Virus record (IMG/VR): IMGVR_UViG_3300046482_000313
Span: 1 to 34,579 of that record
DNA length: 34,579 nt
From: a virus
Strand: one strand, 5' to 3'
The position numbers and the translations under genes were made by a program. The notes below the pieces were generated by a model. It was given only the letters and a program-made list of their open reading frames with translations, was not told where the DNA came from and searched no databases. Shown one piece after another: positions 582-34,579 of the stretch. Numbering within the stretch: position 1 is the stretch's first letter; each line of letters starts with the position of its first letter.

Positions 582-1259
582 CTAACTCCAATTCGTCATC
601 GACGACCAAAAACCACGGCACGTCAAACTTCCACTAGTATCAAATGTACCATCTATAGCGCTGATCAGGCACACGTAACTGGTCGCGGCGATGGGCCGAG
701 AGGCATCGCGAAAGCTCTGCTGCGTGGTCTGCGTGCCCACGGTCAGGCCCGCGAGGCCCCACCTGTCCGTGGCGGTACTATCTCCCACGCTCAGGCCCGT
801 GAGCCCGGTACTGGTGCCGAACTCGGTATCCACACGGATCAAAATTCCTTCGCAGCGATACCCGGCAGGCACCAACCCGGGCACCTGGATGACCCCCGTG
901 CCGGTGGTGGGGGTCACGCCCGTGACTTCGGTCATGCCACTGACCAGGCCGGCGGTGGGGGTGGGTATCCCCGTTTCCCAGGCATAGTTGTCCACCTCCC
1001 ACAGTTGCGAACCTTCCGCATCGGTCAGCACGAGGCGATACGTCCCGTTGAGATAGACCAGGGCCTGCCCGTCTGCTGAAAGCACAACCGGGTTGGGATT
1101 GCTGACCAAGAGGAAGGCATCGCTGTAGGAGGCCTTGGGCATCAGCGTGCCGGCAGCGTAGGTAAAGAGCTTGCCGCCTTCCAGGGGCGTGCCGTCCACG
1201 TCCCGCACGGTGAACAAGGGCCAGGCGGTGATGACGATTGGTTCCACGGCTGGTGCCAT
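582..1259 (-). CDS. Tail fibre/tailspike-like protein with head-binding-type N-terminus
   Basis: This 225-aa protein has an N-terminal region (about residues 1-100) of the kind used to attach podovirus fibres to the tail. It carries [11 protein letters not shown], the [10 protein letters not shown] turn, a [10 protein letters not shown] strand and WEVDNYAWE. The rest is beta-rich and Gly/Thr-rich and resembles fibre C-terminal modules ([15 protein letters not shown]). There is no catalytic signature of a depolymerase. The start is the ATG at 1259, with only a weak ribosome-binding site (AGAAAG). The gene is followed after 3 bases by the collagen-like fibre, suggesting the two form adapter and distal parts of one appendage. 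Its 3' end is lower in GC than its 5' half. Confidence 0.75.
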
Positions 1260-12253: not shown

Positions 12254-12859
12254 CTAGGGCAGATGCTTCCAGGTCTTACGAGCAATGATATTTTGCACGG
12301 TTGGTAACGGCGCATGAAAGAGCCGTGCAATCGTCCGTAGCGACAAGCCATTATCATGATAGCGCCGCATTTGAAGTACCTGCGCTGTTGTAAAACGCGC
12401 TTTATTGTTCTCTTCGCCACGTCGCAGATGGATTAAGCCCGTCTCAATCGCATGAGCCGTATTGCCCTGAGGCGTTGTCCATTCTAAGTTCTCTGGACGA
12501 TTATCTCGTTTGTCTCCATTCAAGTGATTGCCAAGATATCCTGGCGGTCGTCGACCAATAAAGGCCTCAAGGACAAGGTGGTGCACACGAACATAGCGGC
12601 GCGTCCGCATGTGTTGGATGCAAACCTCCAGGTATTGCTCTTTCGAATCCACTTTCGGGGACAAGACCTGCCCTGAAAAGTGCCTTGTGACAACCTGGAG
12701 TATCCCACGACGCAGGCGTTGCGTCGTGGTCGAATGTGCCACACTCCGTACCTGCCCCAGATTGGAGACCTCGTAGAGTCCTTCCCAATCGAGAACAGGT
12801 CGCCATACTTCAAACGACAAGGCCAATTGGAGTGGTGTGGTAGAATCAGAGGTAGCCAT
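12254..12859 (-). CDS. HNH homing endonuclease with NUMOD4 motif
   Basis: A 201-aa free-standing homing endonuclease. A NUMOD4-type motif (EVWRPVLDWEGLYEVSNLGQ) lies at about residues 18-40. The HNH core is about residues 95-145, with VHHLVLEAFIG and the GNHLNGDKRDNRPENLEW segment carrying the catalytic H-N-N-E pattern. A C-terminal helix-turn-helix (SLRTIARLFHAPLPTVQNII) gives target specificity. Such enzymes cut a cognate gene lacking the insertion and spread by repair. The ATG follows AGGAG. It is much richer in A+T than its neighbours, a sign of transfer. It sits after the coat gene, its probable target, and has its own promoter. Confidence 0.9.
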   Translation of the reverse strand: MATSDSTTPLQLALSFEVWRPVLDWEGLYEVSNLGQVRSVAHSTTTQRLRRGILQVVTRHFSGQVLSPKVDSKEQYLEVCIQHMRTRRYVRVHHLVLEAFIGRRPPGYLGNHLNGDKRDNRPENLEWTTPQGNTAHAIETGLIHLRRGEENNKARFTTAQVLQMRRYHDNGLSLRTIARLFHAPLPTVQNIIARKTWKHLP

Positions 12860-12890
12860 GCGTTCACTCCTATTGAACGTAGGGTCAGCG

Positions 12891-12920
12891 CTGTCGCTCC
12901 TGTCGCAAGCAGGAGCACAG
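12891..12920 (-). other. Hairpin in the 5' untranslated region of the coat-linked homing endonuclease
   Basis: CTGT-c-GCTCCTG (12891-12902) pairs with CAGGAGC-ACAG (12910-12920) around a 7-base loop. It lies between the endonuclease promoter and its ribosome-binding site. No T-run follows, so it is not an obvious terminator. A similar hairpin precedes the second homing endonuclease. Confidence 0.5.
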
Positions 12921-12940
12921 TGCGTTGGGTGTGCTTTCTC

Positions 12941-12953
12941 TTATTATACCACA
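12941..12953 (-). promoter_or_regulatory. Extended -10 promoter of the coat-linked homing endonuclease
   Basis: On the minus strand the segment reads TGTGGTATAATAA: a perfect TATAAT (12948-12943) with TGG directly before it, an extended -10. Exactly the same 13 bases precede the other HNH gene (18991-19003). No consensus -35 is visible. Confidence 0.65.
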
Positions 12954-12982
12954 CTGGAACAACCTCTATAGTTCATTTAGTA

Positions 12983-14209
12983 TCATAATACTGGAGGCAC
13001 AGACCACACCCTCGTCGCCCACTCTGGCCTTGTGATCGCAAAACCAAAGGCAATGTCGCTGCGTGATAAATGTGCATCATTCACAATGTCCGATGCCTTC
13101 CAGGTCCGAATCGCGACGCCAGAGGTTGTATCCACCGAGTACGACGCTTCCCCGCTAAAGGGGTCTTGCAAGCGGCACATGGCCATCGCCGCGAACTGTT
13201 TTTGCAGGGTCAGATTCTGGTGATACACCGTGTTAGCGGTCCCCAGAAAGGTCAGCGGCGCGCTGGCGGTGGGCAGCACCGTCACGGTCTGTTGCGGGGT
13301 GCCCGGGCCAATGATCGCGGGGTAGATTTGCAGCGTGGCATTGCCCGAGGCGTCCCCGTTGGCATCGGCCAGGACGGTGAATTGCCGCAGTTGCCCCGTG
13401 GACGCCAGCGACACGGGATTCACGGCATAGACGTTGGCAATGGTGAAAATATCGCCCTTCTTCACCCGCAACGCCGCTGCAGCGGTCCAGCCGCCCGTCA
13501 CAATGGACGTGCCCCCCGCACCCGTCGAGGTATAGGTCGGTGTTCCGCCTCGCGGGCCAGTCGTATGGGCCGCAACATTTTGATCCCAATACCATTCGAA
13601 TCCACCCGAAATCCCCATCAGCCCGCGTTTATACTGCTGGGAGATTTGCGTACTGTCCTGCATCAACCCTTTGTTCTCATTAATCACTGCGGCTTGCTCA
13701 TACTGATTGAGAATGGCTGACCACTGCCCATCATAGGGTGCGCCATTATCGGCCATAATCGCCCCGGCATTGAGATAGGCCAGCCACTTCGCATTGCCAG
13801 GCACCGGGGAAATGATGGCATTCGGGCATTTCCAATAGAGCCCGAGCCCATACGCATCGACCTTATTCGACAGCACAATACTGGCAGGATTGCCGACCCG
13901 ATTGCGCCAGTCGTCCATACTGAGCGTGAGCTCAAAACTGGTGAAGGAGAGCGGCACTTTTTCCTGCTGATCAATGGTCAGCGGGACCGACTCTTCCTTG
14001 TAATCCTGCGGCGTCATCACGGGGCCACTGGTGGCCGCAAGGCGTGCCGGCAACCGAATGGATAACGTCGGCCCTATTTTTGAGCCAGACACCGCGTACT
14101 CGCTGGAATATTCATTCATGATGCGTTTACTAAACACGCGGTTGGTGTCGAAGGCATCGAGCATTTCCTGCGTAATCATGCCGATGCTGAGGATGGTATT
14201 CGTGGGCAC
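12983..14209 (-). CDS. Major capsid (coat) protein, P22 coat type
   Basis: A 408-aa coat protein starting at GTG (14209) behind GAGGTGG. The N-terminal arm, MITQEMLDAFDTNRVFSKRI, leads to a GPVMTPQDYKEESVPLTI strand region. An inserted Gly-rich domain (about residues 225-340, KKGDIFTIANVYAVNPVS) resembles the I-domain of P22-type coat proteins, and the C-terminus FGFAITRPEWATRVWS is typical. It follows the scaffold gene in transcription order. Both terminal thirds are lower in GC than the middle, so the gene looks mosaic, possibly reshaped by the homing endonuclease next door. Confidence 0.85.
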   Translation of the reverse strand: MPTNTILSIGMITQEMLDAFDTNRVFSKRIMNEYSSEYAVSGSKIGPTLSIRLPARLAATSGPVMTPQDYKEESVPLTIDQQEKVPLSFTSFELTLSMDDWRNRVGNPASIVLSNKVDAYGLGLYWKCPNAIISPVPGNAKWLAYLNAGAIMADNGAPYDGQWSAILNQYEQAAVINENKGLMQDSTQISQQYKRGLMGISGGFEWYWDQNVAAHTTGPRGGTPTYTSTGAGGTSIVTGGWTAAAALRVKKGDIFTIANVYAVNPVSLASTGQLRQFTVLADANGDASGNATLQIYPAIIGPGTPQQTVTVLPTASAPLTFLGTANTVYHQNLTLQKQFAAMAMCRLQDPFSGEASYSVDTTSGVAIRTWKASDIVNDAHLSRSDIAFGFAITRPEWATRVWSVPPVL

Positions 14210-14283
14210 AGTGCCACCTCATAAGCACAAAGGTCATCAGTCAGGCCTCTGAGGCGGCAGAAGCGGAGAATAGGCGGCGGTTG

Positions 14284-15327
14284 TTAGCGTTGTTTCCAGA
14301 CCGGCAGCGTACTCGTCTGCTGGCGGTACCTGCGATAGTCCTCCTGGGGCATGCCCTCGCGATAGCCCGGCGGTGGCGTGGTCCCCTGCCCGTTCACCCC
14401 ACTGAGCGGTGGCGGCAAGGGGGGAGACGCGGCGACGCCAGGACGCGGCGACGCGGGGAGGGAGCCTCCTGTCGCCGTGTCCCCGTGTCCCCGTGTCGCC
14501 GCGTCAGTTCCCTGGCCAGCAGGCGGGCTGGTGGGGGCGCCAAGGCGTCCGAGTTCGAGAAACACGAGTGGCGGTGGTAACTGATTGAGGCGCTGCACGG
14601 TCTCGGGCTGCTGCGCCAGCGCGTAGGCCAGGGCCGGGCCGTCGGGGAGCAGCATGAGGGCCTGCTGGAGATGCGGCGCCACCTTCCCGGCGAGCTGGGT
14701 GCGGACCACCTCTTGATAATCGGCGTGCTCGCGGGCAAACGCGGCTTCGCGCTCCAGGAGGGCCTGCTGCGCCTGCTGCGCCTGCGTCTGCTGGCGGTCG
14801 CTGTCGCGCACCTGCTGGGCTTCGTAGCGGGCGGCGGCGCGCACGTAGTCGTCGGAGCTCTGAAACTGCTCGGCCTGTGGCGGCCCGTCGGGCGGCGGCG
14901 GCAGGTCCGGGGCAGCACCCTGGAGCATGCGCACCATCAGCTCGTTCTGCGCGCGCAGGGCGGCCAGTTGCTCACTGGTCTGCTGACGTTCGGCCTGGAG
15001 CGCCCGTTCACTTGCACGGCGCTGGGCCGTGAGGCGGCGAATGCGGCGCTGCACGTAATCCATGGTGGCCACTTCGGGCTCGGGCTCGTCGTCGTCGTCC
15101 CCCGGCGGCGTACCGTCCTGTGCCGCCTGCACGGGCGGCGTACCAGCCGGGGACTCAGAGGGTGGCGCTGATCCCACACCGGGCTGACTGGGGGTTGCAG
15201 GCCCCTGGTCAGTAGCAGCTGGCGCATCTGTTGCGGCCGAGTCCGGACTCGTGCCGTTGGGCGATGCGTCCCCAAGTCTGACGAACTGGCCACTATCGGC
15301 CAGACGTTCATAGGTTTCGATGGGCAT
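14284..15327 (-). CDS. Scaffolding protein
   Basis: A 347-aa protein of scaffold layout: an acidic, Pro/Ala-rich disordered N-terminus with DDDDEPEPEVAT (about residues 75-90), a long coiled coil (about 95-240; RRASERALQAERQQTSEQL and QQTQAQQAQQALLEREAAF) and a basic C-terminus ending in YREGMPQEDYRRYRQQT. Scaffolds fill the procapsid and bind coat through a basic C-terminal hook. It sits between portal/ABA-sandwich and coat genes as in P22. A GC-rich palindromic repeat (14426-14505) is embedded in frame near residues 275-300, probably tolerated because the region is disordered. Confidence 0.85.
   Translation of the reverse strand: MPIETYERLADSGQFVRLGDASPNGTSPDSAATDAPAATDQGPATPSQPGVGSAPPSESPAGTPPVQAAQDGTPPGDDDDEPEPEVATMDYVQRRIRRLTAQRRASERALQAERQQTSEQLAALRAQNELMVRMLQGAAPDLPPPPDGPPQAEQFQSSDDYVRAAARYEAQQVRDSDRQQTQAQQAQQALLEREAAFAREHADYQEVVRTQLAGKVAPHLQQALMLLPDGPALAYALAQQPETVQRLNQLPPPLVFLELGRLGAPTSPPAGQGTDAATRGHGDTATGGSLPASPRPGVAASPPLPPPLSGVNGQGTTPPPGYREGMPQEDYRRYRQQTSTLPVWKQR
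14426..14505. repeat. GC-rich palindromic dispersed repeat, copy 1 (inside scaffold gene)
   Basis: The left arm has iterated GACGCGGCGACGC units and the right arm iterated GTCCCCGTGTCGCCGCGTC units around a short non-palindromic centre, so the two arms are imperfect inverted copies. The 19-base word GTCCCCGTGTCGCCGCGTC is shared exactly with the copy at 29552-29637. It is read in frame as a Thr/Arg/Gly/Asp- and Ser/Pro-rich peptide. Confidence 0.75.
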
Positions 15328-15330
15328 ACA

Positions 15331-15696
15331 TCAATCCTCGCGGAATTGCAGAAAGGCTCGACACACAGCGAGCGCCAGCGTCGCCCCAGAGGCTTCCGCA
15401 TACCAGTCATCAGGGACAGACCCTTCCATCCGACAGGTCCACGCCTCGACATCCGCACAGCCAGCATTGCGCACGCGCAGCGTCACAACCCATGGCGTTT
15501 TCATCCAGAAGGGCGAACTGAGCTCCGCGATGAGGGACAGGGCCAACAGGCTCTTCTGTGACCAGCGGCTTGCGTTTGGTGGTCTCCGGTGCTCGCGGCG
15601 GTGCTCGCGGCGGAGTTCCGCCGCCATCAGGGCATCGAGTTGACGGCCAGCCGGCAAGGCACAGATCTCAGCATAGGAGGGATGTGACTCGCTCAT
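15331..15696 (-). CDS. Phage ABA-sandwich-like small protein
   Basis: A 121-aa protein opening with SYAEICALPAGRQLDALMAAEL and ending with a PDDWYAEASGATLALAVCRAFL helix. This opening helix, central Trp-rich strands and closing 'ATLALAVCRA' helix resemble the phage ABA-sandwich family, often found as small accessory proteins of unknown role. A basic HRREHRRPP stretch lies near residue 33. The ATG overlaps the portal stop (ATGA) and lies in the usual portal-scaffold gap. Family call is from pattern memory and moderately certain. Confidence 0.6.
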   Translation of the reverse strand: MSESHPSYAEICALPAGRQLDALMAAELRREHRREHRRPPNASRWSQKSLLALSLIAELSSPFWMKTPWVVTLRVRNAGCADVEAWTCRMEGSVPDDWYAEASGATLALAVCRAFLQFRED

Positions 15697-17810
15697 CGCG
15701 TCTCTTCCTGCCCCGTGCCGTTGCTGGCAGCCATCTCTTGCGCATGCTGTGCGGCACTCTGGGCGAGCTCCGTGGCCTGGAGCCCATACTTCGCCTGGAC
15801 CTCAGCCATCTTGATCTGATTGGCCAGCATCGCCTCTTCGTGGTCCCACTTGGCTTTCTGGGTCTCCACGGCAATGTCACGGCGCTTGTCACTGAGCTGC
15901 GTCTTGAGCCGGGCATTCTCCTGTTCCGTCAGCGCCAATTGTTGCGTGGCGACCTGCGTCTGCTGCTGCATCTGCTGGAGGGCCTGCGTCACCTGCTGGA
16001 GCTGCTGCTGCGCCTGCTGCACCTGGTTCTGGAGCATCGCGACTTTGTGCTCAGGCGCGCCGCCTTCCGTGGCCTGGAGCGCTTCGGGCGGCACGAGGGT
16101 CTTCAGGCGCGCCGCCATTTCGTCGGCCTGGGGCACATCGAGCGAGCCCGCGTACAGGTCGAGCAGGTACGGCCCGATCTGCTGCCCCAGGGGCGAGCCC
16201 AGGAGCATGCCTAAGCGCTCGTTCATCATCTCGCGGGAGGTGTCGTACGAGGGGCCTGTAGAGACGACACACTCATACACCCCCTGCCCGAGCTGGTGCT
16301 GCTGGCCGTCTGGCAAGGGCTGGTTCACCTTCGCCATGGACACCGCGCCATCCTTGCCCACCTGGCGCAGTTCGGTGGGCCCAGGATACAGCTTCGGGAG
16401 GATGTCCAGGATTTGTCGGCCACACGCCTCGATACTCCATGCCAGGTTCGCCGTGAAGCCGGCGGTGGTCTGTTCGCCCTCGCGCTTGCGGGCATCAATC
16501 GCCGCGCCGCTCTGTTCGTTGGACGGGGCGCCCACGCTCGCCTCATACTGGCCCACGGTGGCCTGAATGTCCTGCGCGGCCATCATGCGGGCCTGGGTGA
16601 TGGCCTGCACGGCTGGTTCGGCCACTTCCCGGCGTGGTGGGGGGAGCAACGTGCCCCCACTGGTCACGGCTTTGATGGGCAGGTAGGGCAGGTGCGCGTC
16701 GTTGGCCTGGTTCCAAAGTCCTTCATACCCGGCAATCTGCTCCACGTACAGGATGTACGGCGCTTTCGGGGCCAGGGCAATGGCGGACATCTCCGCGGAG
16801 GCATAGGCATCATAGGCGAGTTGGCTCGACGCCGAGGCCTGCACAATGCCGGTGCGCCGGGCGCGGCCGTCCAGGTCGAGCCGGCGGCCCTCGCAGCGAA
16901 TGATGGGAATATACATGCTCGGCCAGGTGGTCTTGTCCAGGATGGCGTAGCCGCACATGGTGACGCCGTACACGCGGGGCACGAGCGTGGTGCGGGTCGG
17001 CCACTCCGGTGGCAGGTCGCCTAAGTCCTCGCTGGGCAGCACGGTGCCATCGGGCATCTGCACCAGCTCCAGCTTCTCATAGACCTTGTACCAGTACTCG
17101 GCCACCTTCACGAGATCCCGCGTGACCCACTCCTGATTCGGGTACGTCGCCCACTGGCCGACGTCCACGGGCTGTACCTCGTACTTCGCACAGAAAGAGG
17201 CGTGGGTCATGGTTGAGATCACGAAGGCGAAATCCATGTCCAGGCCGGCGGGGTGGGTGCTGGCGGGGTCACAGAACACGGCGAAACGATCCGCGATAGG
17301 CTTGATTTTCAGACACTGTTGAAACGAATACGGACTCTCATACTCCAGGGTCAGGCGGAAAAAGCCTTCGCCGGTCGTAATCGCCTGCGTCAAGGCATTA
17401 GTATAGGCTATTTCGGCCTGACTATCTGCCTCAATGTCTCTCGCCTTCCCTTCAAGCACAACTGCCGTCTGCTGCGTCGCTCCAGACGATTTTGGCCTAA
17501 CCCTGATTCCAAGAGGATTACGCCTATATGAATTAACTATCTGGTTGACGTACTGCTGGAGTCTATCGATAGTGAGGCAAGGCGCCTCCGCTCCCGGCTG
17601 TGAGCGTTGCCGCACGAGGTACTCAGGCCAGTGCTGACCGGAATAGAACTTTAATGCCTCATATTGCTGTTGACGCTCATCGCGCTCCCAATCTTCAACG
17701 GCAGCAAATCGCGCCCTCGCTTCACTGAGAACGTCTTGGTCTGAACGCGGGTCGAGCGCGGTACGTTGGTCCCGGGTGAGGGGGCGCAGGGTCTGGAGAT
17801 GCTCAGCCAT
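15693..17810 (-). CDS. Portal protein, P22 type
   Basis: A 705-aa portal, the 12-mer ring through which DNA enters and leaves the head. N-terminal WERDERQQQYEALKFYSGQHWP, then PCLTIDRLQQYVNQIVNSYRRNPLG and TTGEGFFRLTLEYESPYSFQQ, are strong P22-portal family features. The C-terminal 130 residues are Gln-rich coiled coil (QVQQAQQQLQQVTQALQQMQ) that would form the barrel inside the head. The ATG at 17810 overlaps the upstream stop (TGATG). A low-GC tract at about 17370-17740 covers the N-terminal part and suggests recombination with a lower-GC relative. Confidence 0.9.
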   Translation of the reverse strand: MAEHLQTLRPLTRDQRTALDPRSDQDVLSEARARFAAVEDWERDERQQQYEALKFYSGQHWPEYLVRQRSQPGAEAPCLTIDRLQQYVNQIVNSYRRNPLGIRVRPKSSGATQQTAVVLEGKARDIEADSQAEIAYTNALTQAITTGEGFFRLTLEYESPYSFQQCLKIKPIADRFAVFCDPASTHPAGLDMDFAFVISTMTHASFCAKYEVQPVDVGQWATYPNQEWVTRDLVKVAEYWYKVYEKLELVQMPDGTVLPSEDLGDLPPEWPTRTTLVPRVYGVTMCGYAILDKTTWPSMYIPIIRCEGRRLDLDGRARRTGIVQASASSQLAYDAYASAEMSAIALAPKAPYILYVEQIAGYEGLWNQANDAHLPYLPIKAVTSGGTLLPPPRREVAEPAVQAITQARMMAAQDIQATVGQYEASVGAPSNEQSGAAIDARKREGEQTTAGFTANLAWSIEACGRQILDILPKLYPGPTELRQVGKDGAVSMAKVNQPLPDGQQHQLGQGVYECVVSTGPSYDTSREMMNERLGMLLGSPLGQQIGPYLLDLYAGSLDVPQADEMAARLKTLVPPEALQATEGGAPEHKVAMLQNQVQQAQQQLQQVTQALQQMQQQTQVATQQLALTEQENARLKTQLSDKRRDIAVETQKAKWDHEEAMLANQIKMAEVQAKYGLQATELAQSAAQHAQEMAASNGTGQEETR

Positions 17811-18019
17811 CAGTAGCTCGCTTTGCTCCCACGTTTTTTCGCCGGCTTCTCGGGCACATCCGCACCTGCTGCTCTGGCCTTGCTCAGTCCTATTGCGACC
17901 TGCTGTTTGCGTTTCGCCTCACCCGTTTTGCCGGGCTTTACGGTGCTCGGGGGATTGTCAAACACTTCGCGCATCGAGCGCTCCACGATCTTATCTGACT
18001 TGCTTTTCGTCTTCGCCAC
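17810..18019 (-). CDS. Small basic DUF6496-like protein
   Basis: A 69-aa Lys-rich protein starting at GTG (18019) behind AAGGAG. The pattern IVERSMREVFDN, then VKPGKTGEAKRKQQVAIGLSKARAAG, resembles the short DUF6496 family (a helix, Gly/Lys linker, then Q-A-I-A-L-S-A-R helix) found in phages and bacteria with no assigned role. Its stop overlaps the portal start. The charge and size would allow nucleic-acid binding, but this is not shown. Confidence 0.65.
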   Translation of the reverse strand: MAKTKSKSDKIVERSMREVFDNPPSTVKPGKTGEAKRKQQVAIGLSKARAAGADVPEKPAKKRGSKASY

Positions 18020-18233
18020 GGTGCTCTCCTTGCCAACTGGCCTGTGCCCACTGGAGGCGATATAAATGGCACTGGCAAAATTCCATCGGCCAGTGCGCGT
18101 AGCAGCGTCGGATAGCCCAGGTCGGCAGCCGCCCCCGGTAGCCCCATTGCCGGAGCAGCACCGCCCAGCCGCGCAACGTCTCGTGATGCCAGATGGGCTC
18201 ACAGGGCCAGATGGTGGGGGCGGTGTCAGGCAT
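17991..18233 (-). CDS. Small Trp/Arg-rich protein of unknown function
   Basis: An 80-aa protein beginning MPDTAPTIWPCEPIWHHETL at an ATG five bases after GAGG. It has eight or more tryptophans and several cysteines and ends in a charged tail (EHRGEDEKQVR). It overlaps the start of the next gene by 29 bp. Its ribosome-binding site directly abuts the stop of the relic terminase tail, showing that this gene once followed the intact terminase gene. No family recognised. Small Trp-rich peptides at this place occur in other phages, but this could be a weakly translated ORF. Confidence 0.5.
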   Translation of the reverse strand: MPDTAPTIWPCEPIWHHETLRGWAVLLRQWGYRGRLPTWAIRRCYAHWPMEFCQCHLYRLQWAQASWQGEHRGEDEKQVR

Positions 18234-18241
18234 ACGCACCT

Positions 18242-18328
18242 CTACCGGAACCAGAAGCCCTGGCGCAAGCCGGTGGGCATCGCCCCCTCCTGGCGCGGCG
18301 GGCTGTGGATCACCACGCTGTCCTGCAT
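18242..18328 (-). pseudogene. Relic 3' end of the large terminase gene
   Basis: Read in frame, this 29-codon stretch encodes a peptide matching 22 of the last 28 residues of the large terminase, including the final MPTGLRQGFWFR, with an in-frame stop. It is separated from the full terminase gene by the HNH gene. Its codons are GC-rich like the rest of the phage, while the terminase 3' end at 19026 is AT-richer. It begins with ATG directly after the HNH stop, behind AGGAGG, so it might still be translated as a 28-aa peptide. Best read as the original terminase terminus displaced by the homing event. Confidence 0.85.
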
Positions 18329-18925
18329 CTAGCCTCCTGGAGCCTGCTTCGCCTTCTGACGCTGTCGATAATCCCGCGTACGCTTCCGGCTACATGCACG
18401 ACAACTCCGATTCCCATTCGTCCTGATAGCAAGATTATCCCCATCAAGGAGATGTCCATGTGCACAGTGGATCTTGCGTTTATTCTCCGCAGCAGCCCCT
18501 TCTCCTCGAAGGATATTCACCGCGTGAGACACCGCTTCAAGATGAGCTGGATTGCAGCACGCACGATTCCGGCACAAATGATCGAGCGTTAATCCAAAGG
18601 GAATAGGACCAACAAAGCGCTCATATGCATAGCGATGCGTAAGCAAATACTTGCCACTGCGCACCGCGCGACTGCGAAGAGGAATCCTGCCATACCCATC
18701 ATGGCCCATAACACCATGCCATATCCAACACGTGTCTGTACGTTCAACATACTTTTCAAAACACAGTGCTGAACTGCATTCCTCTGAACAACCGCTAGGA
18801 ACGCCTCCAGGAGAGAGAAAAACTTGTTGACAATTTGGACAGATAAGAAAAGGACGTCTCCCACGTGGATGGCGTATTTTTTGCCAGACAGCGGACGGAA
18901 AAAGCCGTAGATTCTTGTCAGACAT
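18329..18925 (-). CDS. HNH homing endonuclease inserted after the large terminase
   Basis: A 198-aa HNH endonuclease. An N-terminal Cys pair region (CPNCQQ, CSEEC; about residues 25-50) is likely zinc binding. The HNH core, about residues 90-140, has HRYAYERFVGPIPFGLTLDH, then CRNRACCNPAHLEAVS with the H/N/H residues. A C-terminal Cys-rich basic tail (CAHGH, CRACSRKRTRDY) follows. I chose the ATG at 18925 (GGAG seven bases upstream) over an earlier in-frame ATG at 19021, which would lie upstream of the promoter. It is AT-rich against its surroundings and flanked by two terminase 3' ends, so the terminase gene is its likely target. Confidence 0.9.
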   Translation of the reverse strand: MSDKNLRLFPSAVWQKIRHPRGRRPFLICPNCQQVFLSPGGVPSGCSEECSSALCFEKYVERTDTCWIWHGVMGHDGYGRIPLRSRAVRSGKYLLTHRYAYERFVGPIPFGLTLDHLCRNRACCNPAHLEAVSHAVNILRGEGAAAENKRKIHCAHGHLLDGDNLAIRTNGNRSCRACSRKRTRDYRQRQKAKQAPGG

Positions 18926-18961
18926 GCTGCGACTCCAATCCAGTTGCAGTGTGGTTAGGGG

Positions 18962-18985
18962 CGTGTCAGGCACCACCCTGGCACG
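18962..18985 (-). other. Hairpin in the 5' untranslated region of the terminase-linked homing endonuclease
   Basis: CGTGTCAGG (18962-18970) faces CCTGGCACG (18977-18985) around a 6-base loop. The stem is 9 bp with one imperfect pair. It lies between the extended -10 box and the ribosome-binding site, the same place as the hairpin before the other HNH gene. No T-run follows. Confidence 0.45.
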
Positions 18986-18990
18986 TCTCG

Positions 18991-19003
18991 TTATTATACC
19001 ACA
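18991..19003 (-). promoter_or_regulatory. Extended -10 promoter of the terminase-linked homing endonuclease
   Basis: The minus strand reads TGTGGTATAATAA, with TATAAT at 18998-18993 and TGG before it. The 13 bases are identical to those before the coat-linked HNH gene. This supports a start of transcription near 18985 and a protein start at 18925. Confidence 0.65.
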
Positions 19004-19025
19004 TGAATCTGCGCAATACATTGAT

Positions 19026-20396
19026 TTACCTAAACCAAAAGCCTTGCCGTAAGCCTGTCGGCATCATGCCTTCTGGACGCACGGGGCTATGAATCTGCAC
19101 GGCATCTTGATCCTGATATGTAGTACAGAATGTTCTAAGAGAATCTGCAGCGTGTGAAGACCAATCGTGTAATGGATGGTTTAACCAGTCCTTCCTTGTT
19201 TCGCTCCATTCCCGTCTATACGCACGCAGCGCTTGCAACCCTTCATGGCATTTATCCTGGTCAAAGATGAAGCGAGGAAACAAGGTTCTCACGGCCTGGA
19301 TGCCGTCGCCAAGATTGCCCTGTGTGGCCACGACAGACGGCTTTAGCCCTAAACTCTCGGCAATCGCTAAGCGTGAACGACCATCAGAAGAAAAATCACG
19401 GGCCTGGATGTCATGGGGCCAAAAAAAACGTCCGTATATATACGGCTTCTCTCGAATGACTTTGGCATACCATTCTAAACCATGATCCGACGCCTCTAAA
19501 TAATCAATCACGTGGATCATCCGCCCCACCGCCTGATAAAACCAAATAGCGGTAGCATCGCCAATTCCAATGTCGAAACTGACGTGCACCGGCACACTGG
19601 GGTCATGCGGCACACGCGTCAGGCGGCCCTCCTCCTGCGCGGTCTGGAGATACGCGGCGTAATAGGCGCCGATCAGGGCGGACTCGAAGCTGCAGAGAAA
19701 CTCTTGCGAAAATTGCTCCGGGCTCATGACCTGGCGCGCGGCCTCGAGTTCAGCGGGATCGACAATGCCTGTTTCATCGGCGCGGTAGAGTGCGGTATGC
19801 CAGCCCTCGAGCCCTTGCGCGTCTTGATACAGATCGTAAAAGTGGTTATGCCCAAGGGGTGTCGAGATAAAGACCGCCCATCCCTGGCGATCGGCCAGGG
19901 CCGGCCGCACCACTTCCGTCCAGGTCCTGGGGCGCATCTGGGCGTATTCATCGAAGACCACACCATCGAGATACATCCCGCGTAAGGCGTCGGGGTTATC
20001 GGCCCCGAACAGTTGGATACGGCTGCCCCGCGCCAGATCAACGCGGAGTTCGGCTTCGTTCACGCTGACGCCTGGCCAGTCCTGCGTGGTGCGCTTGAGC
20101 ACATCCCACACAATCGTTTTGGCCTGGTTGCGCAGTGGGGCGACATAGGCAAAGCGCGGGTAGGGGGCCTGGCAATGGAGGGCATCGTAGAGCAAGCAGT
20201 AGAGGGAGAGAAACGTTTTGCCAAAACGGCGATGCGCGACCCACACATTAAAACGGGTGCGGTCGTCATAGAGGCGTTGTTGGTGCAGGCGGAGAGGATA
20301 CAGCAGGGTCGTTGACGGGCGCGCGTGCGCCAGGAGCAGCGCTTCCGCTTCCAGTAACGTTAGGAGTTCGACTTCCTCACGCAGGCTCAGGGACAT
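19026..20396 (-). CDS. Large terminase subunit (packaging ATPase/nuclease)
   Basis: A 456-aa terminase that translocates DNA into the head and cuts it. Numbering from the upstream ATG at 20402, Walker A is VAHRRFGKT (55-63), Walker B is VVFDEY (D151, E152), and coupling motif STPLGHNHFYD is near 180-190. RNase H-like nuclease acidic residues are in SFDIGIGD (D277, D282) and SSHAADSL (D420). A GCGGA at good spacing favours the ATG at 20396; it overlaps the small terminase gene by 20 bp. From about 19600 to the stop the gene is AT-richer than its 5' half, consistent with replacement of its 3' end together with the HNH gene. Confidence 0.92.
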   Translation of the reverse strand: MSLSLREEVELLTLLEAEALLLAHARPSTTLLYPLRLHQQRLYDDRTRFNVWVAHRRFGKTFLSLYCLLYDALHCQAPYPRFAYVAPLRNQAKTIVWDVLKRTTQDWPGVSVNEAELRVDLARGSRIQLFGADNPDALRGMYLDGVVFDEYAQMRPRTWTEVVRPALADRQGWAVFISTPLGHNHFYDLYQDAQGLEGWHTALYRADETGIVDPAELEAARQVMSPEQFSQEFLCSFESALIGAYYAAYLQTAQEEGRLTRVPHDPSVPVHVSFDIGIGDATAIWFYQAVGRMIHVIDYLEASDHGLEWYAKVIREKPYIYGRFFWPHDIQARDFSSDGRSRLAIAESLGLKPSVVATQGNLGDGIQAVRTLFPRFIFDQDKCHEGLQALRAYRREWSETRKDWLNHPLHDWSSHAADSLRTFCTTYQDQDAVQIHSPVRPEGMMPTGLRQGFWFR

Positions 20397-25948: not shown

Positions 25949-28478
25949 CACTTCGACCAACGATCTCCTCGCCGCGGCCGTGACGTATGCCCAGCGTGGC
26001 TGGCGCGTCATCCCCCTGTGGGGCCTGCGCCAGGGGCACTGTATGTGCGCGCGGCGCGGCGCCTGTCCCACGCCGGGAAAACATCCGCCCCTGGCCGGGT
26101 GGGTCACTGTTGCCACCCTTGACCCGGCACAGCTTGCGCACTGGTGGCACCGCTGGCCCCAGGCCAATGTGGGCATCGTCACCGGGCAGGCTTCAGGCCT
26201 GATCGTTGTTGATGTTGATCCCCGCCATGGCGGCCATATCGCCTGGGACGAACTCCAACATCACCATGGCACCATCCCTACCTCGCCCCAGGTGCTCACC
26301 GGGGGAGGCGGCACCCATGACTATTTTGCCACGACGGAAGCCCTTGGCAGCATTGACCTGGCGCATGGCATTCAATTCCAGGCGGAAGGCCGCCTCGTCG
26401 TGGCGCCGCCGAGCCTGCACGTCTCCGGGCAGCGCTATACCTGGGAGAGTGCCCACGATCCCGATGACATCCCACTTGTCCCTCTGCCGGACTGGATACG
26501 CGGGCTCGTCCACGCCCATGCCGCCCAGGACGGGCAGGACCCTGGAACGTCCCTGCCCCTCATCGAAAGTCCGCCCGTCCATCTGCTGCGCATCTCTACC
26601 CGCATGAAGTACGTGATCCACACAGGCACTGATCCCGACAATCCCACCCGCTATCCAAGCCGCTCCGAAGCCCTCTTTGCCGTGATCAGTGCCCTCATCC
26701 AGGCTGGCTATGATGACGCCACGATTGCCGCCATTGTGCTCAACCCCCATCACGGCATCAGCGACAAACCCCGCAGCCAGCGCGACCCACGCAGCCCCAG
26801 ATACGAGGCGTCGATTCGGAGTTGGACGGCCAAAGAAATTGCCCGCGCCCGGGCCAAAGTCCGCCCGGCCAGGAACGGCACCGACCCCACCTCAGGGATT
26901 AAATTCCTAGATTCCTCGCATTTAATTCCTAATTTTGAAGTGCCTGCAACTGATTGTTTTGATAGTGAGTTGAACGATAATGCCGGATTTAATTCCTTTA
27001 ATTCATTAAATTCCTGCCCCACCCCATGGCCTGTGCTCGCACCTGAGGCGTACTACGGGCTGGCTGGCCAGATTGTGCACACCATCGAGCCCCATAGTGA
27101 GGCAGATCCCGTCGCGCTGTTGTGCCAGCTCCTGACCTATTTTGGTGCCATCGTTGGCCGCAGCGCCTACTATCAGATCGAAGCCACCCGCCACTATGCC
27201 AACCTCTATACCTGCCTGATTGGCCCGACGGCCAAAGGCCGCAAGGGCACCGCCTACGATCATATCGAGGCGCAGATGAAAACCGTGGATACCTCGTGGA
27301 GTGCCAACAACCGGAGCGGCGGGTGTGGCTCAGGCGAAGGACTTATTGCCGCCGTCCGCGATCCCGTCATCAAGCGCGAAGCGATCAAACAACGGGGGAA
27401 GGTCACCGGATACGAGGATGTCGAGGTCGATCAGGGCGTCATCGATAAGCGCCTGCTGGTCTATGAAAGCGAATTTGCCTCGGTACTCAAGATTGCGTCG
27501 CGGGAAGGCAATATCCTCAGCGTCATCTTGCGCCAGGCATGGGAGACGGGCGAGTTACGCAACACCGTCAAAACCAGCCCCATGAAAGCGACGGGCGCCC
27601 ATATCGCGCTGATTGCCCATATCACCATCGAAGAGTTGCAACGCTTGCTCACGAGTACCGAGGCGGCCAATGGCTTTGGCAATCGCTTTGTCTGGTTCCT
27701 GGTCCGACGCTCCAAGTTGTTACCGGATGGTGGCCAGCTGGAGACGGTCAACGTGCAGCCCCTGGTGCAGGGACTCACCACTGCAGCCCGGGCAGCCCGG
27801 GCGGTCACGGCCATGCGCCGCGACGGGGCATCAGCGGCCGCGTGGCGTGCGGTCTATCCGTTGCTCTCAGAAGATCGCCCGGGCCTTGCTGGCGCGCTCC
27901 TCGCCCGTGCGGAAGCCCAGGTACTGCGCTTCTCGATGCTCTACGCGCTCCTGGATGGGAGCGCCGTGATCACGCTGGATCATCTGTGTGCGGCCCTGGC
28001 CCTGTGGGAGTATGTCGAGCACACCATCACGTATATCTTTGCCGAGACGTTAGGGGAACCCCTGGCCGATGCCTTGCTGGTGTTGTTGCGAGAGCAGGGG
28101 GAGGAGGGCTTAACCAAGACGCAGATCTTCAGTCAAGGCATGTTTCACAATCGGCGTGCCGACGAAATTGACCGGATCATTCGCCTGCTCGTCGACCGCG
28201 AGTTGGCGACGGTGACGGTGGTCCCCACCGGGGGGAAGGGTCGCCATACGGAAAAGATCACCGCCAGGGGGCAGGAATTTAATGAATTAAAGGAATTAAA
28301 TCAGGGAATGTACGTGAACCTCGCCAAAAACAAAGGCTTAGAGGAGAGATCAAAACAGGAATTAAATGGCAGAACTTTAGGAATTAAATCCCAGACAGGG
28401 GCTGGCTGCACCCATGAGACCACCGTCCAGGATGGTGAGAGTCTCGTCTGTCGGCACTGCGGAACAGTCGTTTTTTAA
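25938..28478 (+). CDS. Primase-polymerase / DUF3987 helicase fusion (replication protein)
   Basis: An 846-aa replication protein. Residues 1-200 form a bifunctional primase-polymerase (AEP) domain: YAQRGWRVIPLWG, PTPGKHP near 45-50, catalytic DVD at 92-94 in IVVDVDPRHGG, and VVAPPS. A helical domain follows (ALIQAGYDDATIAAIVLNPH, about 250). A DUF3987-type ATPase domain spans about 365-700, with Walker A-like GPTAKGRKGTAYDH (about 430) and Walker B-like LLVYESEFA. The C-terminus has a winged-helix-like part and a final zinc ribbon (CTHETTVQDG, CRHCGTVVF). The helicase domain is bracketed by inverted repeats that encode NSFNSLNS and NELKELN. AAGGAG precedes the ATG. Confidence 0.88.
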   Translation: MARDTSTNDLLAAAVTYAQRGWRVIPLWGLRQGHCMCARRGACPTPGKHPPLAGWVTVATLDPAQLAHWWHRWPQANVGIVTGQASGLIVVDVDPRHGGHIAWDELQHHHGTIPTSPQVLTGGGGTHDYFATTEALGSIDLAHGIQFQAEGRLVVAPPSLHVSGQRYTWESAHDPDDIPLVPLPDWIRGLVHAHAAQDGQDPGTSLPLIESPPVHLLRISTRMKYVIHTGTDPDNPTRYPSRSEALFAVISALIQAGYDDATIAAIVLNPHHGISDKPRSQRDPRSPRYEASIRSWTAKEIARARAKVRPARNGTDPTSGIKFLDSSHLIPNFEVPATDCFDSELNDNAGFNSFNSLNSCPTPWPVLAPEAYYGLAGQIVHTIEPHSEADPVALLCQLLTYFGAIVGRSAYYQIEATRHYANLYTCLIGPTAKGRKGTAYDHIEAQMKTVDTSWSANNRSGGCGSGEGLIAAVRDPVIKREAIKQRGKVTGYEDVEVDQGVIDKRLLVYESEFASVLKIASREGNILSVILRQAWETGELRNTVKTSPMKATGAHIALIAHITIEELQRLLTSTEAANGFGNRFVWFLVRRSKLLPDGGQLETVNVQPLVQGLTTAARAARAVTAMRRDGASAAAWRAVYPLLSEDRPGLAGALLARAEAQVLRFSMLYALLDGSAVITLDHLCAALALWEYVEHTITYIFAETLGEPLADALLVLLREQGEEGLTKTQIFSQGMFHNRRADEIDRIIRLLVDRELATVTVVPTGGKGRHTEKITARGQEFNELKELNQGMYVNLAKNKGLEERSKQELNGRTLGIKSQTGAGCTHETTVQDGESLVCRHCGTVVF
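26899..27020. repeat. Inverted repeat, left arm, in primase-helicase gene
   Basis: About 120 AT-rich bases carrying five TTTAATTCC/TTAAATTCC-type sites (26899, 26921, 26988, 26997, 27005). Bases 26986-27020 are a perfect 35-base reverse complement of 28268-28302. The spacing of the two outer sites also mirrors the right arm. Confidence 0.85.
28268..28389. repeat. Inverted repeat, right arm, in primase-helicase gene
   Basis: The reverse-complement partner of 26899-27020, with five GGAATTAAAT-type sites (28274, 28284, 28292, 28358, 28380). The inner 35 bases (28268-28302) match exactly. The outer part is diverged but keeps site order, and its spacings (66 and 22 bases) compare with 67 and about 21 in the left arm. 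The arms enclose 1.25 kb of the helicase-coding sequence. Confidence 0.85.
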
Positions 28479-29011: not shown

Positions 29012-30301
29012 ATGAGTACCACCATTCTTCCAGAAGTGCAACAGATCATGGATGACCGCGAAGAGCGTGAACTGTGGATAGTAGGAAAAGAACATGAGCG
29101 GCCGCCGTATTTCTTCCCGGATGAAGGGATGGGCAATCGCCTGGGCCGTGCCCTGCGCGTGGTCAGTGAGGGCCGCTGCACCCCACACAGCGACGGGAGT
29201 TACACGGTCGAGGGCTCCGAGGGCCGTACCTACCGCGTCACCGACAGTTGTAGCTGCCCGAACAGCCAGAAGGGCAAGAGCAAGTGGTGTTACCACGCCG
29301 TGGCCGTGGCGCTGTACATCGAATGGCGCACGCGCTGTGCCTCGCTCACCGGCCAGCCTGCCCTGCCCCTCCCGCCGAGTACCCCCGACGCACGGCTGGC
29401 GCAGCCGCCCGCGCTGCCCACCCGCTGCGCGGCCTGTGGCCAGCCCGACTCCGAGCAGGCGTATCTCGGACACCTCGCCTGCGGCCATGTCGTGTGTACC
29501 CGCTGCCACCGGGACCAGTGCCCCTGCTGTGTCCCCCAGACGCCTGGGGAGGACGCGGGGACGAACCCCGACGCGGGGACGCGGCGAGGGGATCCGGATC
29601 CTGTCTCCGCGTCGCCGCGTCCCCGTGTCGCCGCGTCTGCCCCCTCTCTCACGCCCCAGGAGGCCCCTATGACCGAAGACCCTGACCCGTATATCCCCGA
29701 ACCCGCCGTGGCCGTCCTCGAGCCGCCGGTGGCGGAGCCGGTGCCGCTGCGCATCCCGAAGGAATACACCGTCTCGATCAAAGGCAGAACGCACGTGCTC
29801 TATACCGGCCTGGTGCTGGTGGCCCGCAGCCAGGGCCTGATGACGCTCAGCGCCGACTGGACCTACAACGATGCCGACCTGTCGCTGGCGCATGCCGTGT
29901 GCACCTTTGCCGATGGCCGCCGCTATGAAGACAGCGGCGATGCCACGCCCAGTAATGTCAGCAAGGGCATTGCCAGCCACTTTCGCCGCGTCGCCCTGAC
30001 CCGGGCGAAAGCACGCTGCCTGCGGGATGCGCTGGGGATCAGTGAGTGCAGCGTGGAGGAGCTGGAGGACGACGCCCACCGGCGCGAGACGCCCGACCTG
30101 AGCGCGGCCGTGCCCCCGCCCACGACGCCCACCACGCAGGACCTGCGTAGCCAGATCTGGGCCATCGTCAAGGGGCGGGCGCCGCAGACCGTGGGGAGCC
30201 GTGAGGCCGTGGCCGCCTGGGTGCAGCAGCAGACGGGCTATGCGCTGGTGCCTGCCAACTATGGCGCCATCGTGCACAGCCTGGAAACACGGGAGGGGTA
30301 G
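29012..30301 (+). CDS. SWIM and RING-like zinc protein fused to a putative DNA-annealing/binding domain
   Basis: A 429-aa protein. Residues 50-100 form a SWIM zinc finger (C80, C82, C93, H95; SCSCPNSQKG, WCYHAVAVAL). Residues 139-173 have C3HC4 RING-type spacing (C139, C142, C157, H159, C162, C165, C170, C173). Residues ~180-212 are encoded by a GC-rich palindromic repeat. From M220 a second module begins: IPKEYTVSIKG, YTGLVLVARSQGL, and GDATPSNVSKGIASHF followed by LTRAKARCLRDALGI. This pattern is known from phage proteins of uncertain function, sometimes suspected to bind or anneal ssDNA. AGGAGG five bases before M220 (29669) shows that the second module was or still is a separate start. 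Confidence 0.75.
   Translation: MSTTILPEVQQIMDDREERELWIVGKEHERPPYFFPDEGMGNRLGRALRVVSEGRCTPHSDGSYTVEGSEGRTYRVTDSCSCPNSQKGKSKWCYHAVAVALYIEWRTRCASLTGQPALPLPPSTPDARLAQPPALPTRCAACGQPDSEQAYLGHLACGHVVCTRCHRDQCPCCVPQTPGEDAGTNPDAGTRRGDPDPVSASPRPRVAASAPSLTPQEAPMTEDPDPYIPEPAVAVLEPPVAEPVPLRIPKEYTVSIKGRTHVLYTGLVLVARSQGLMTLSADWTYNDADLSLAHAVCTFADGRRYEDSGDATPSNVSKGIASHFRRVALTRAKARCLRDALGISECSVEELEDDAHRRETPDLSAAVPPPTTPTTQDLRSQIWAIVKGRAPQTVGSREAVAAWVQQQTGYALVPANYGAIVHSLETREG
29552..29637. repeat. GC-rich palindromic dispersed repeat, copy 2 (joins two modules)
   Basis: Left arm GACGCGGGGAC units, a GGATCCGGATCC centre, and right-arm GTCGCCGCGTCC and GTGTCGCCGCGTC units make an imperfect long palindrome. It shares exact 17-19-base words with the copies at 14426 and 32501. 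It lies in frame between the RING-like cysteines and the internal start at 29669. Confidence 0.8.
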
Positions 30302-32316: not shown

Positions 32317-32477
32317 CCAAACTCGACCTTGTAACCCAACTCTGCCAGATCCGTGAGGACCTGGAAACCCTGCGCCTGGACCTGCACCTGGAGGCGGCCA
32401 GTGCGGCGCGCCTGCTTGACCTGGGCGCCAGGCTGGATGCCCTCATTGATGCCCTGTTTGTTCTGGAGGATCGCTGA
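32313..32477 (+). CDS. Small helical peptide
   Basis: A 54-aa amphipathic helical peptide, MTKLDLVTQLCQIREDLETL, RLDLHLEAASAARLLDLGAR, LDALIDALFVLEDR, with Leu at heptad positions. It is coupled to both neighbours (ATGA and TGATG overlaps). It joins the group of short coiled-coil peptides (28575, 28767, 30304) scattered in this operon. Possibly adapter subunits, but nothing specific can be said. Confidence 0.55.
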   Translation: MTKLDLVTQLCQIREDLETLRLDLHLEAASAARLLDLGARLDALIDALFVLEDR

Positions 32478-33955
32478 TGCCACACCCGCTGCTTCTGCCA
32501 TCGCCGTCCCTCGCCGCGTCCCCGTGTCCCCGCGTCCCCGTGTCTCCCTGGCTGTTCCTACTCTGTCTGCTCCTGCCGCTGACGGCCGGCGCCCAGACCA
32601 CCTACCATACCCGCCAGGCCGAGGAGGTGCTGGCCGGTACCCGTCGCCTGAAGGGCAGCGACAGCCACAGTTGCACCCAGGCCACCAACCCGGCCACGCC
32701 CAAGGCCTCGATCAACGCCGGGATCGCCTGTCTGGCTCCCGGCGACACGCTCGCCATCGGCCCGGGCCACTATGACGAGCTGCTCCAGGGCCAGATGAGC
32801 GCCAGCCGCACCTGTCCGAGCGCCGATCAGACGATACAGCCGGGCTGTGCCGTCATCCCCAATGGCGTGAGCGCCGAGCGCCCCACCACCCTGACGGGCA
32901 CGGCGACGAACGTCGTCATCTCCCCTCGTGGACGCGCACTGTCGGGTGGCGGGGGCATCCTGACCTATTACGACGCCTCGAAGTACCAGCACCTCGAGGG
33001 CCTGCACTTTGTGGCCGATAGCGCGCCGGGGAGTGCCAGCGGCGTGCATCTGGGCAACACGTATGGCGTGCTGTTCACCCGCAACGAGATTGCCTACGGC
33101 ACGCTCAACAGCTCACACCACAGCCAGTATCACGCCATCCTCGGCAACGACGTGCACCACGCTGGTGAGGGCTGTGACCGCCGCACCCAGGGTTCGCCCC
33201 CCTGCCCGCATGGCATGTACATCTGCGGGCAACACCATGTCGTGATGTCCAACTACGTGCATCACAACAGCAACTACGGTATCCAGATCTCCTGCGAGCA
33301 GGGCGGTATTAGCGATGTGCGCGTGGAGCGCAACCGGGTGGCGTACAATAAGGGCGTCGGCATCCGCATCCAGGGCAGCGGCATGACGGCGGTGGCGAAT
33401 CTGCTCATCGCGAATGGCGTGGGCATGACCACCGGCGGCAACGGGCTCATCGCCCACAATACGTTCGACGGGTATGACGCGGACATGGATGATCCGTTTG
33501 GGATCTGGTACGAGGGCAATTTTCAGATTGTCAACAACGTCTTCACCCGCATGAAATCGGCCTGGCTGATGGTGCGCCGCCGCTCGGGGAGTACCTATGT
33601 GGACCCGGATCCCCAGGTGGTGCACCACAACGGCTGCGATCTGGCCGGCAACGTCGGCTGCACGCTGGTCCAGCCCACCGACACGTGGTACCGGGATCTG
33701 GCCAGCGGGGACTATGCCCTGGCGGCGCAGAGTCCGGCGCAAGGGGCCGGCGCGTCAGGGGTGCCGGTCACGCAGGATATCCAGTATGCCACGTACCCGC
33801 AGCCGGACCAGGGCGCCTATGCCTGGCAGGGGAGTCCGCCCATCCCGCCCGAGCCGCCACAGCCCGGACCCGTGACGGCATGGCGCTGCGAGGGGGATCT
33901 GTTGGCAGGAGGCAAACTGGCCATGACCTGCGTGCCACAGGAGGACAGGCGGTAA
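32477..33955 (+). CDS. Secreted right-handed beta-helix protein (probable cargo gene)
   Basis: A 492-aa protein. Residues 25-41 (PWLFLLCLLLPLTAGAQ) are a Sec signal peptide with a likely cut after AGA. The mature part has repeated Asn/His/Gly rungs of a parallel beta-helix (about 130-400): LEGLHFVADS, VLFTRNEIAYG, AILGNDVHHAG, VVMSNYVHHNSNYGIQISCE, VRVERNRVAYNKGVGIRIQG, NGLIAHNTFDGYD. This fold is shared by pectate lyase-type polysaccharide lyases and host-surface proteins. The Sec signal is odd for a virion protein and points to a host-altering cargo gene. A GC-rich dispersed repeat supplies the ~18 residues before the signal. The start overlaps the upstream stop (TGATG). Confidence 0.8.
   Translation: MPHPLLLPSPSLAASPCPRVPVSPWLFLLCLLLPLTAGAQTTYHTRQAEEVLAGTRRLKGSDSHSCTQATNPATPKASINAGIACLAPGDTLAIGPGHYDELLQGQMSASRTCPSADQTIQPGCAVIPNGVSAERPTTLTGTATNVVISPRGRALSGGGGILTYYDASKYQHLEGLHFVADSAPGSASGVHLGNTYGVLFTRNEIAYGTLNSSHHSQYHAILGNDVHHAGEGCDRRTQGSPPCPHGMYICGQHHVVMSNYVHHNSNYGIQISCEQGGISDVRVERNRVAYNKGVGIRIQGSGMTAVANLLIANGVGMTTGGNGLIAHNTFDGYDADMDDPFGIWYEGNFQIVNNVFTRMKSAWLMVRRRSGSTYVDPDPQVVHHNGCDLAGNVGCTLVQPTDTWYRDLASGDYALAAQSPAQGAGASGVPVTQDIQYATYPQPDQGAYAWQGSPPIPPEPPQPGPVTAWRCEGDLLAGGKLAMTCVPQEDRR
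32501..32548. repeat. GC-rich dispersed repeat, copy 3 (one arm only, in beta-helix gene)
   Basis: Iterated TCGCCGCGTCCCCGTGTC and CCGCGTCCCCGTGTC units, sharing a 17-base word with copy 2. The opposite arm is absent. It encodes SLAASPCPRVPVSP just before the signal peptide, lengthening the N-terminus beyond that of a usual signal. Confidence 0.7.
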
Positions 33956-34293
33956 GCAACTGCTGGCACTCACGTGCCGCAGCTTTGCCACTACCGGTAC
34001 AACCGCCACTTTTCCAAGGTGGCCCGGCGCGACTGATGAGGCGGGCTTACAGGCCGCCCTAGCGCCAGTGCTGATCCTGACGCGTGTGGAGATGCCGTTG
34101 AACTGCGTCGACAAGTATGGTGGCATAAGACCGTGCCCAAACCGTGCTGCTCCGCAGAGCGAGTGTCTCAGGGCATCGACAGAGTGTACCTAGTATTTTG
34201 TACCCTATGCAAGCGAACGGCGGCTGAAGCCGGGGAACGCTCCTCTGCTGGCATTGAAATGCCGCAGTTTCCGCGCCTTGAAAGGGATGTTCG
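33956..34293 (+). other. 338-base gene-free stretch with two copies of a bulged hairpin
   Basis: No convincing gene: short ORFs lack ribosome-binding sites. Two hairpins of the same design occur at about 33963-33985 and 34240-34262. Each has CTGC, a bulged T, GGCA, a 6-base loop (CTCACG or TTGAAA), then TGCCGCAG. Stems are identical while loops differ, and short outer pairing is possible in both. Other stems (GGCGG/CCGCC near 34041) occur. It could be a structured RNA, a recombination site pair or a remnant of a duplicated module. No -10/-35 of quality was seen. Confidence 0.5.
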
Positions 34294-34455
34294 ATGACGA
34301 CCTGTACGATCTGCGGCAGCCCCTGTGCCGGCAGCGACGAGACCAGCAACCCGTTCTGTACCGATTGCCAGATGCTGAATTTCCACGGCCAGACGGTGCC
34401 GGATCTGGCCCTGGGCGGAGCCGGGTGGGACCTGCCCCTGCCCCCGCCCAGGTAG
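34294..34455 (+). CDS. Zinc-ribbon peptide next to the CRISPR array
   Basis: A 53-aa peptide with a treble-clef or ribbon-type metal site: CTICGSPC near the N-terminus and CTDC at residues 22-25, then a Gly/Pro-rich tail (LALGGAGWDLPLPPPR). AAGGGATG precedes the ATG by six bases. It ends six bases before the first CRISPR repeat. It is not a Cas protein. Similar tiny zinc peptides are common in the early genes of this phage (31978), which argues that phage DNA extends up to the array. Confidence 0.65.
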   Translation: MTTCTICGSPCAGSDETSNPFCTDCQMLNFHGQTVPDLALGGAGWDLPLPPPR

Positions 34456-34460
34456 CAGGC

Positions 34461-34579
34461 GTGTGTCCCCCGCGCGCGCGGGAGGAACGACACACGGTTG
34501 TGCGCTACTGCTCATTGCCAAGTGTGTCCCCCGCGCGCGCGGGAGGAACGCCCAGGCGTGTCGTGAGATCGCGGTATTG
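34461..34579. CRISPR. Two-repeat CRISPR array, type I-E-like, cut by the window edge
   Basis: Two identical 29-base repeats (34461-34489 and 34522-34550; core CCCGCGCGCGCGGG, ends GTGTGTC and GGAACG) enclose a 32-base spacer (34490-34521). A second spacer starts at 34551 and is cut after 29 bases by the window end. The 29/32 geometry and the GTGT..CCCCGCG..GCGGG..GAAC pattern fit type I-E. No leader-like AT-rich tract lies on the left, and no cas gene is in the window. The second spacer equals 4524-4552 of this phage. The PAM position suggests transcription from the right, so this spacer would be leader-proximal and newest. Spacer 1 has no match that I found here. Confidence 0.85.

Follow-up and report, generated by a model that had tools for sequence, protein, structure and literature searches.

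The right end of the phage contig

The window, by which we mean the whole stretch of 34,579 nucleotides that was analyzed, is a complete IMG/VR record (34,579 bases, linear), so the array at its right end is cut by the contig end. Structural genes lie on one strand and an early operon on the other, and the portal protein shares approximately 30 to 35% identity with the nearest annotated phages. Positions 12661 to 20169 are 99.99% identical to a 7.5-kb contig of IMG sample 3300045968, which indicates that the same phage was assembled in that sample too. The features considered below are as follows.

Structural genes, minus strand: P22-type portal protein, P22-type coat protein, scaffold, large terminase, head-closure and DNA-ejection proteins
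Early operon, plus strand: ParB-like, HNH, primase-polymerase, SWIM and VRR-NUC genes
4388 to 5902, minus strand: ejection-protein-like ORF containing the protospacer; match to phrog_13634 (unknown function), E 9e-22
4524 to 4555, plus strand: protospacer matching spacer 2 (29 nt visible, extended to an inferred 32 nt), within the preceding ORF
33956 to 34293, plus strand: noncoding stretch with two similar hairpins (33960 and 34245) and a conserved element (34085 to 34214)
34294 to 34455, plus strand: 53-aa ORF with two CxxC motifs, a small zinc-ribbon; its stop lies 5 nt ahead of repeat 1
34461 to 34489, plus strand: type I-E-like CRISPR repeat 1, GTGTGTCCCCCGCGCGCGCGGGAGGAACG, by exact match to repeat 2 and type I-E profile score
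34490 to 34521, plus strand: spacer 1, 32 nt, between repeats 1 and 2
34522 to 34550, plus strand: CRISPR repeat 2, equal to repeat 1 in 29 of 29 nt
34551 to 34579, plus strand: first 29 nt of spacer 2, ending with the contig; 29/29 identical to 4524 to 4552

The ORF at 4388 to 5902 probably encodes an ejection protein, judging from its position by a phrog_598 DNA-ejection gene and a transglycosylase virion gene. The long DNA-ejection-like ORF at 5913 to 8534 contains 57-nt direct copies (7184 to 7240 and 7265 to 7321) that are 95% identical and 81 nt apart. In the primase ORF, ATTTAATTCCT-type inverted repeats (26878 to 27020 and 28268 to 28409; at most 97% complementary) are separated by about 1.3 kb and are possibly origin-related.

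The array is genuinely present in the sequence and belongs to a known kind of feature. The earlier note had described two exact 29-base repeats, a 32-base spacer and a second spacer matching the phage, and all three hold at the positions listed above. A chance origin has negligible probability both for the 29-nt match of spacer 2 and for an exact 29-nt repeat pair in 34.6 kb. Furthermore, the identity between spacer 2 and the phage sets in with the base that directly follows the repeat, and its leftward extension is 0 bases. Since identity would seldom start at the repeat/spacer border in a random chimera, the natural reading is that spacer 2 was derived from this phage lineage, wherever the array resides. 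For spacer 1, we found no target at 23 or more of 32 positions among the comparison loci and no near-full match in the phages collection, and its first 24 nt were absent from viral_contigs. The protospacer of spacer 2 likewise had no counterpart at 23 or more of 32 positions in relatives among the comparison loci.

The assignment to type I-E, also made in the earlier note, is supported at the level of a type I-E-like array by the geometry (29-nt repeat and 32-nt spacer, with one complete spacer visible) and by the resemblance of the repeat to repeats from 11 annotated cas loci. Only 2 of 200,000 composition-preserving shuffles scored as high against type I-E. As in cellular type I-E arrays, the repeat is 29 nt and the spacer 32 nt long, and the repeat ends and stem resemble those of the 11 reference loci. 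Unlike them, the array adjoins phage genes and has neither cas genes nor a leader-like gap, and the repeat tail after the perfect stem is 7 nt as read from the sequence, not 8 nt.

No Cas1 or Cas6e was found in the six frames of the record, no leader-like gap precedes repeat 1, and Rfam matches at the array were all far below the gathering scores. No sigma-70-like site was found in 33900 to 34579; if the array is phage-borne, its transcription would come from the early operon. The repeat was not found, exactly or with free positions, in viral_contigs and genome_contigs (84,980 species), and thus no host or sister array is known. Within 3 mismatches, it occurred in 0 of 26 related phage records, many of them short fragments. 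A plasmid match (H21, Roseovarius) was discarded as a host lead and attributed to chance: its E value was 0.3, the gene next to it is of the ParB family, and cas genes are not annotated in that region.

Strand of the array and the PAM side

To orient the repeat, we used 11 type I-E repeats located beside annotated cas genes, those of E. coli K-12 and ten plasmid loci. The ten plasmid arrays lie downstream of the cas genes and are GNNTTCCCC...GGGGATGAACCG-like in the operon direction; for E. coli, the one array found in the fetched K-12 stretch was read on the cas-gene strand. On the leader-to-array strand, the 11 repeats have roughly the form GTGTTCCCC...GGGGATGAACCG. Against this profile the window repeat scored 14.8 bits forward and 5.2 bits in reverse. 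The left-one-out reference repeats scored 19 to 39 bits, above the window repeat, and the reversed references −4 to 9. With fixed boundaries, the repeat ends alone gave +3.7 forward versus −6.4 backward. In an ungapped comparison, the plus strand scored 198 and the minus strand 109, and the minus strand shifted by one base scored 197. The palindromic core is thus nearly symmetrical, and the strand signal resides only in the repeat ends, where the informative motifs are GTGT at the start and GAACG at the end. Altogether, the plus strand was preferred by about 9 to 10 bits in the gapped whole-repeat comparison and by about 10 bits at the ends, and the orientation test placed all 11 reference repeats correctly. 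By this comparison of repeats, the crRNA strand is very probably plus, even with the AAG described below allowed for.

With a plus crRNA strand, the PAM position (4521 to 4523) is CCC, and neither AAG nor ATG lies 5' of the protospacer on the spacer-sense strand. The far side of the protospacer (4556 to 4558) reads CTT, which is AAG on the minus strand and the Lys449 codon of the ejection-protein ORF. The earlier note had taken this AAG for the PAM. The trinucleotide is indeed present, but by the repeat orientation it is PAM distal, and the proposal that the host had recently acquired immunity does not follow as stated, since AAG is on the wrong side for a plus crRNA. Two of the three bases of CCC are within the Gly461 codon, and relatives that keep the glycine would consequently have CCN at this place, never AAG. 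In the type I-E system of E. coli, AAG and ATG are consensus PAMs, and less than half of the naive spacers come from AAG sites (PMC6568314); CCC was not found by name as a PAM in that source. The missing canonical PAM bears on spacer function and less so on the identity of the array.

AAG makes up 0.9% of the trinucleotides in the window and is unlikely to occur by chance at that site. Its location directly beyond the 32-nt protospacer would be accounted for if the array were on the minus strand with an unseen leader to the right; AAG would then be the real PAM, as the earlier note took it to be, and the spacer would guide the cutting of this phage. The palindromic core taken alone would allow this, as it leaves the strand unsettled (197 versus 198), but the repeat ends and the gapped comparison both favor the plus strand in a test that was right for 11 of 11 references, and we consider a minus-strand array very unlikely. 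Still less probable is a plus-strand array in which spacer 2 was acquired from the AAG site but integrated in the flipped direction, as an inert record of a phage encounter in either host or phage. Such an event would reconcile the orientation of the repeat with an AAG on the far side, and flipped insertion has been described (PMC5059440, citing Shmakov 2014). However, it is rare, accounting for <0.5% of spacers in type I-F data (PMC5059440), and the end of spacer 2, which would tell a 32-nt from a 33-nt spacer, is missing from the contig.

The left flank and the join between phage and array

For the location of the array, three alternatives had been listed earlier: a phage mini-array, a prophage/host junction and an assembly overlap. 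This was the right set, with the qualification that a prophage junction, in which the right end would be host DNA, is unlikely, because the record yielded neither an integrase nor a tRNA nor any host gene.

The sequence to the left of the array is phage-like, and as far as about 34.2 kb it resembles that of this phage family. In trinucleotide composition, positions 33957 to 34456 rank at the 16th percentile of 500-nt stretches by distance from the phage mean, i.e., closer than most, and the last ORFs have the same GC3 as the early genes. CxxC motifs, which are common across the early operon, are missing from most structural genes, and the 53-aa CxxC ORF fits the early operon. The array is codirectional with this operon. 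No relatives were found for the 53-aa ORF in viral_contigs or phages, for the beta-helix gene (32477 to 33955) in the phage collections, or, as confirmed hits, for the SWIM gene in a pattern scan of viral_contigs. A GC-rich simple repeat (CGCGTCCCCGTGTC-like) is present at four sites (14418 to 14521, 29546 to 29645, 32506 to 32568 and 7332 to 7378). One of these copies falls in the N-terminal region of the beta-helix ORF, which ties this gene to the rest of the contig.

The conserved element of about 130 nt at 34085 to 34214, within 250 nt of the array, is also present in related contigs at different places (L004:7802-7927, 73%; G022/L089:14191-14309, 73%), with a partial copy in a third (G013:C1:13121-13151). 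Its conserved blocks are AACAAGTATGGTGGCATAAGACC and GTGTACCTAGTATTTTGTACCCTATGCAAGC. It had no match in Rfam, and its consensus fold contains six pairs with two-sided changes, as derived from three sequences only. The two similar hairpins on either side of the element in the window suggest that it is a small mobile element. If so, it supports a phage origin of the flank without proving it.

A tail-fiber gene lies at window position 1. Early-type genes adjoin the tail operon in the related contig G012, and window positions 582 to 1259 have a homologue in the gene at L093:3957-4646. These last two observations indicate that early and tail genes of this phage family meet at the right end of the window. 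In the related contig G022, an IS200/IS605-like pair (L089:17511-18963; TnpB-like and TnpA-like ORFs, judged by eye) is located past the early genes, roughly at the site occupied in the window by the beta-helix gene and the array. An end-to-end closure of the contig was tried and rejected: no 16-mer from its last stretch was found in the first 2 kb.

Almost as likely as a phage-borne array is a false join, in which the assembler would have attached a host CRISPR locus with an anti-phage spacer to the phage contig. Host spacers against a phage of the same sample are the commonest cause of such a spacer match. The contig would then break off at the point where the spacer and phage paths merge. 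A de Bruijn contig that enters a shared node ends with one k-mer shared, and in this contig the shared end measures exactly 29 nt. MEGAHIT has 29 among its default k values, which would bear on this contig only if such an assembler was used. In line with this, the 29-nt visible match starts a presumed 32-nt spacer, no related phage record has an array, and self-identity is unusual among phage mini-arrays. A false join, however, leaves the left side of the array unexplained: at 34,455 to 34,461 there is no known shared stretch long enough for an assembly overlap, the flank is phage-like, and repeat 1 follows the ORF after only 5 nt, without a leader. A 9-mer, CAGGCGTGT, occurs both at the left border of the array and in the protospacer; it was dismissed as the cause of an assembly join because it is too short.

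We favor, at a probability of about one-half, a phage-borne, leaderless and cas-less type I-E-like mini-array. For this reading we counted the phage-like composition, the shared element, the direction of the operon, and the lack of a leader-like gap, of Cas1, of Cas6e and of an integrase. Against it we counted the lack of an array in relatives and of the repeat in any other record, the identical 29-nt self target, the 53-aa ORF and beta-helix gene without relatives, and the end of the contig inside spacer 2.

A possible mini-array and its carrier

Leaderless phage mini-arrays have been described (PMC6858448). According to the same source, mini-arrays are directed at relatives, with the carrier's own targets mutated or deleted. 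Mini-CRISPR arrays of phages and archaeal viruses are reviewed in PMC11656645. As in these, one or two spacers are visible in the array, cas genes are lacking, one spacer matches the lineage of the virus itself and, as in the phage examples, there is no leader. Unlike them, the window phage carries an identical target (29/29, with no canonical PAM on the plus reading), and only the PAM could spare it; moreover, the contig ends within the array, whose full length may be greater, and the searches turned up no host that has this repeat. The window also shares the presence of repeat units without cas genes with RNA anti-CRISPRs, solitary repeat units of which type I-E examples inhibit a type I-E system (PMC10651486). 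It differs from these in having two perfect repeats and a full-length spacer rather than a solitary repeat behind a promoter, and no promoter-like site precedes the array.

If the mini-array is physically linked to the phage, it would lie at the convergent end of the early operon of a P22-like phage, and read-through on the same strand could yield an array precursor RNA. As expected from type I-E biology, host Cas6e would cut this precursor and host Cascade would load the product. Spacer 2 would be a piece of the lineage's own ejection gene, and the carrier copy, with CCC at the PAM position, would escape cutting. If it has any activity, the unit would target other phages such as sister phages, prime acquisition, or, like the RNA anti-CRISPRs (PMC10651486), serve as a repeat decoy for host Cas proteins. 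The linkage, the transcription, the use of host Cas proteins and any function are inferred here. The full proposal, in which a leaderless type I-E mini-array on a P22-like phage holds a self-identical spacer that is harmless to the carrier through the PAM side only, and that the phage keeps either as an inert guide or Cas decoy or for use against sister phages, seems to us rather unlikely.

Should the join be false, it would still connect the phage with a host that carries a type I-E-like system, and the repeat would be a handle for finding that host. If the linkage is true, this is a virus-borne array with a spacer matching its own carrier, a situation said to be avoided in published cases. 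Such a case would point to the PAM side as sufficient for protecting the carrier and to recombination with host arrays as the way in which phages gain spacers.
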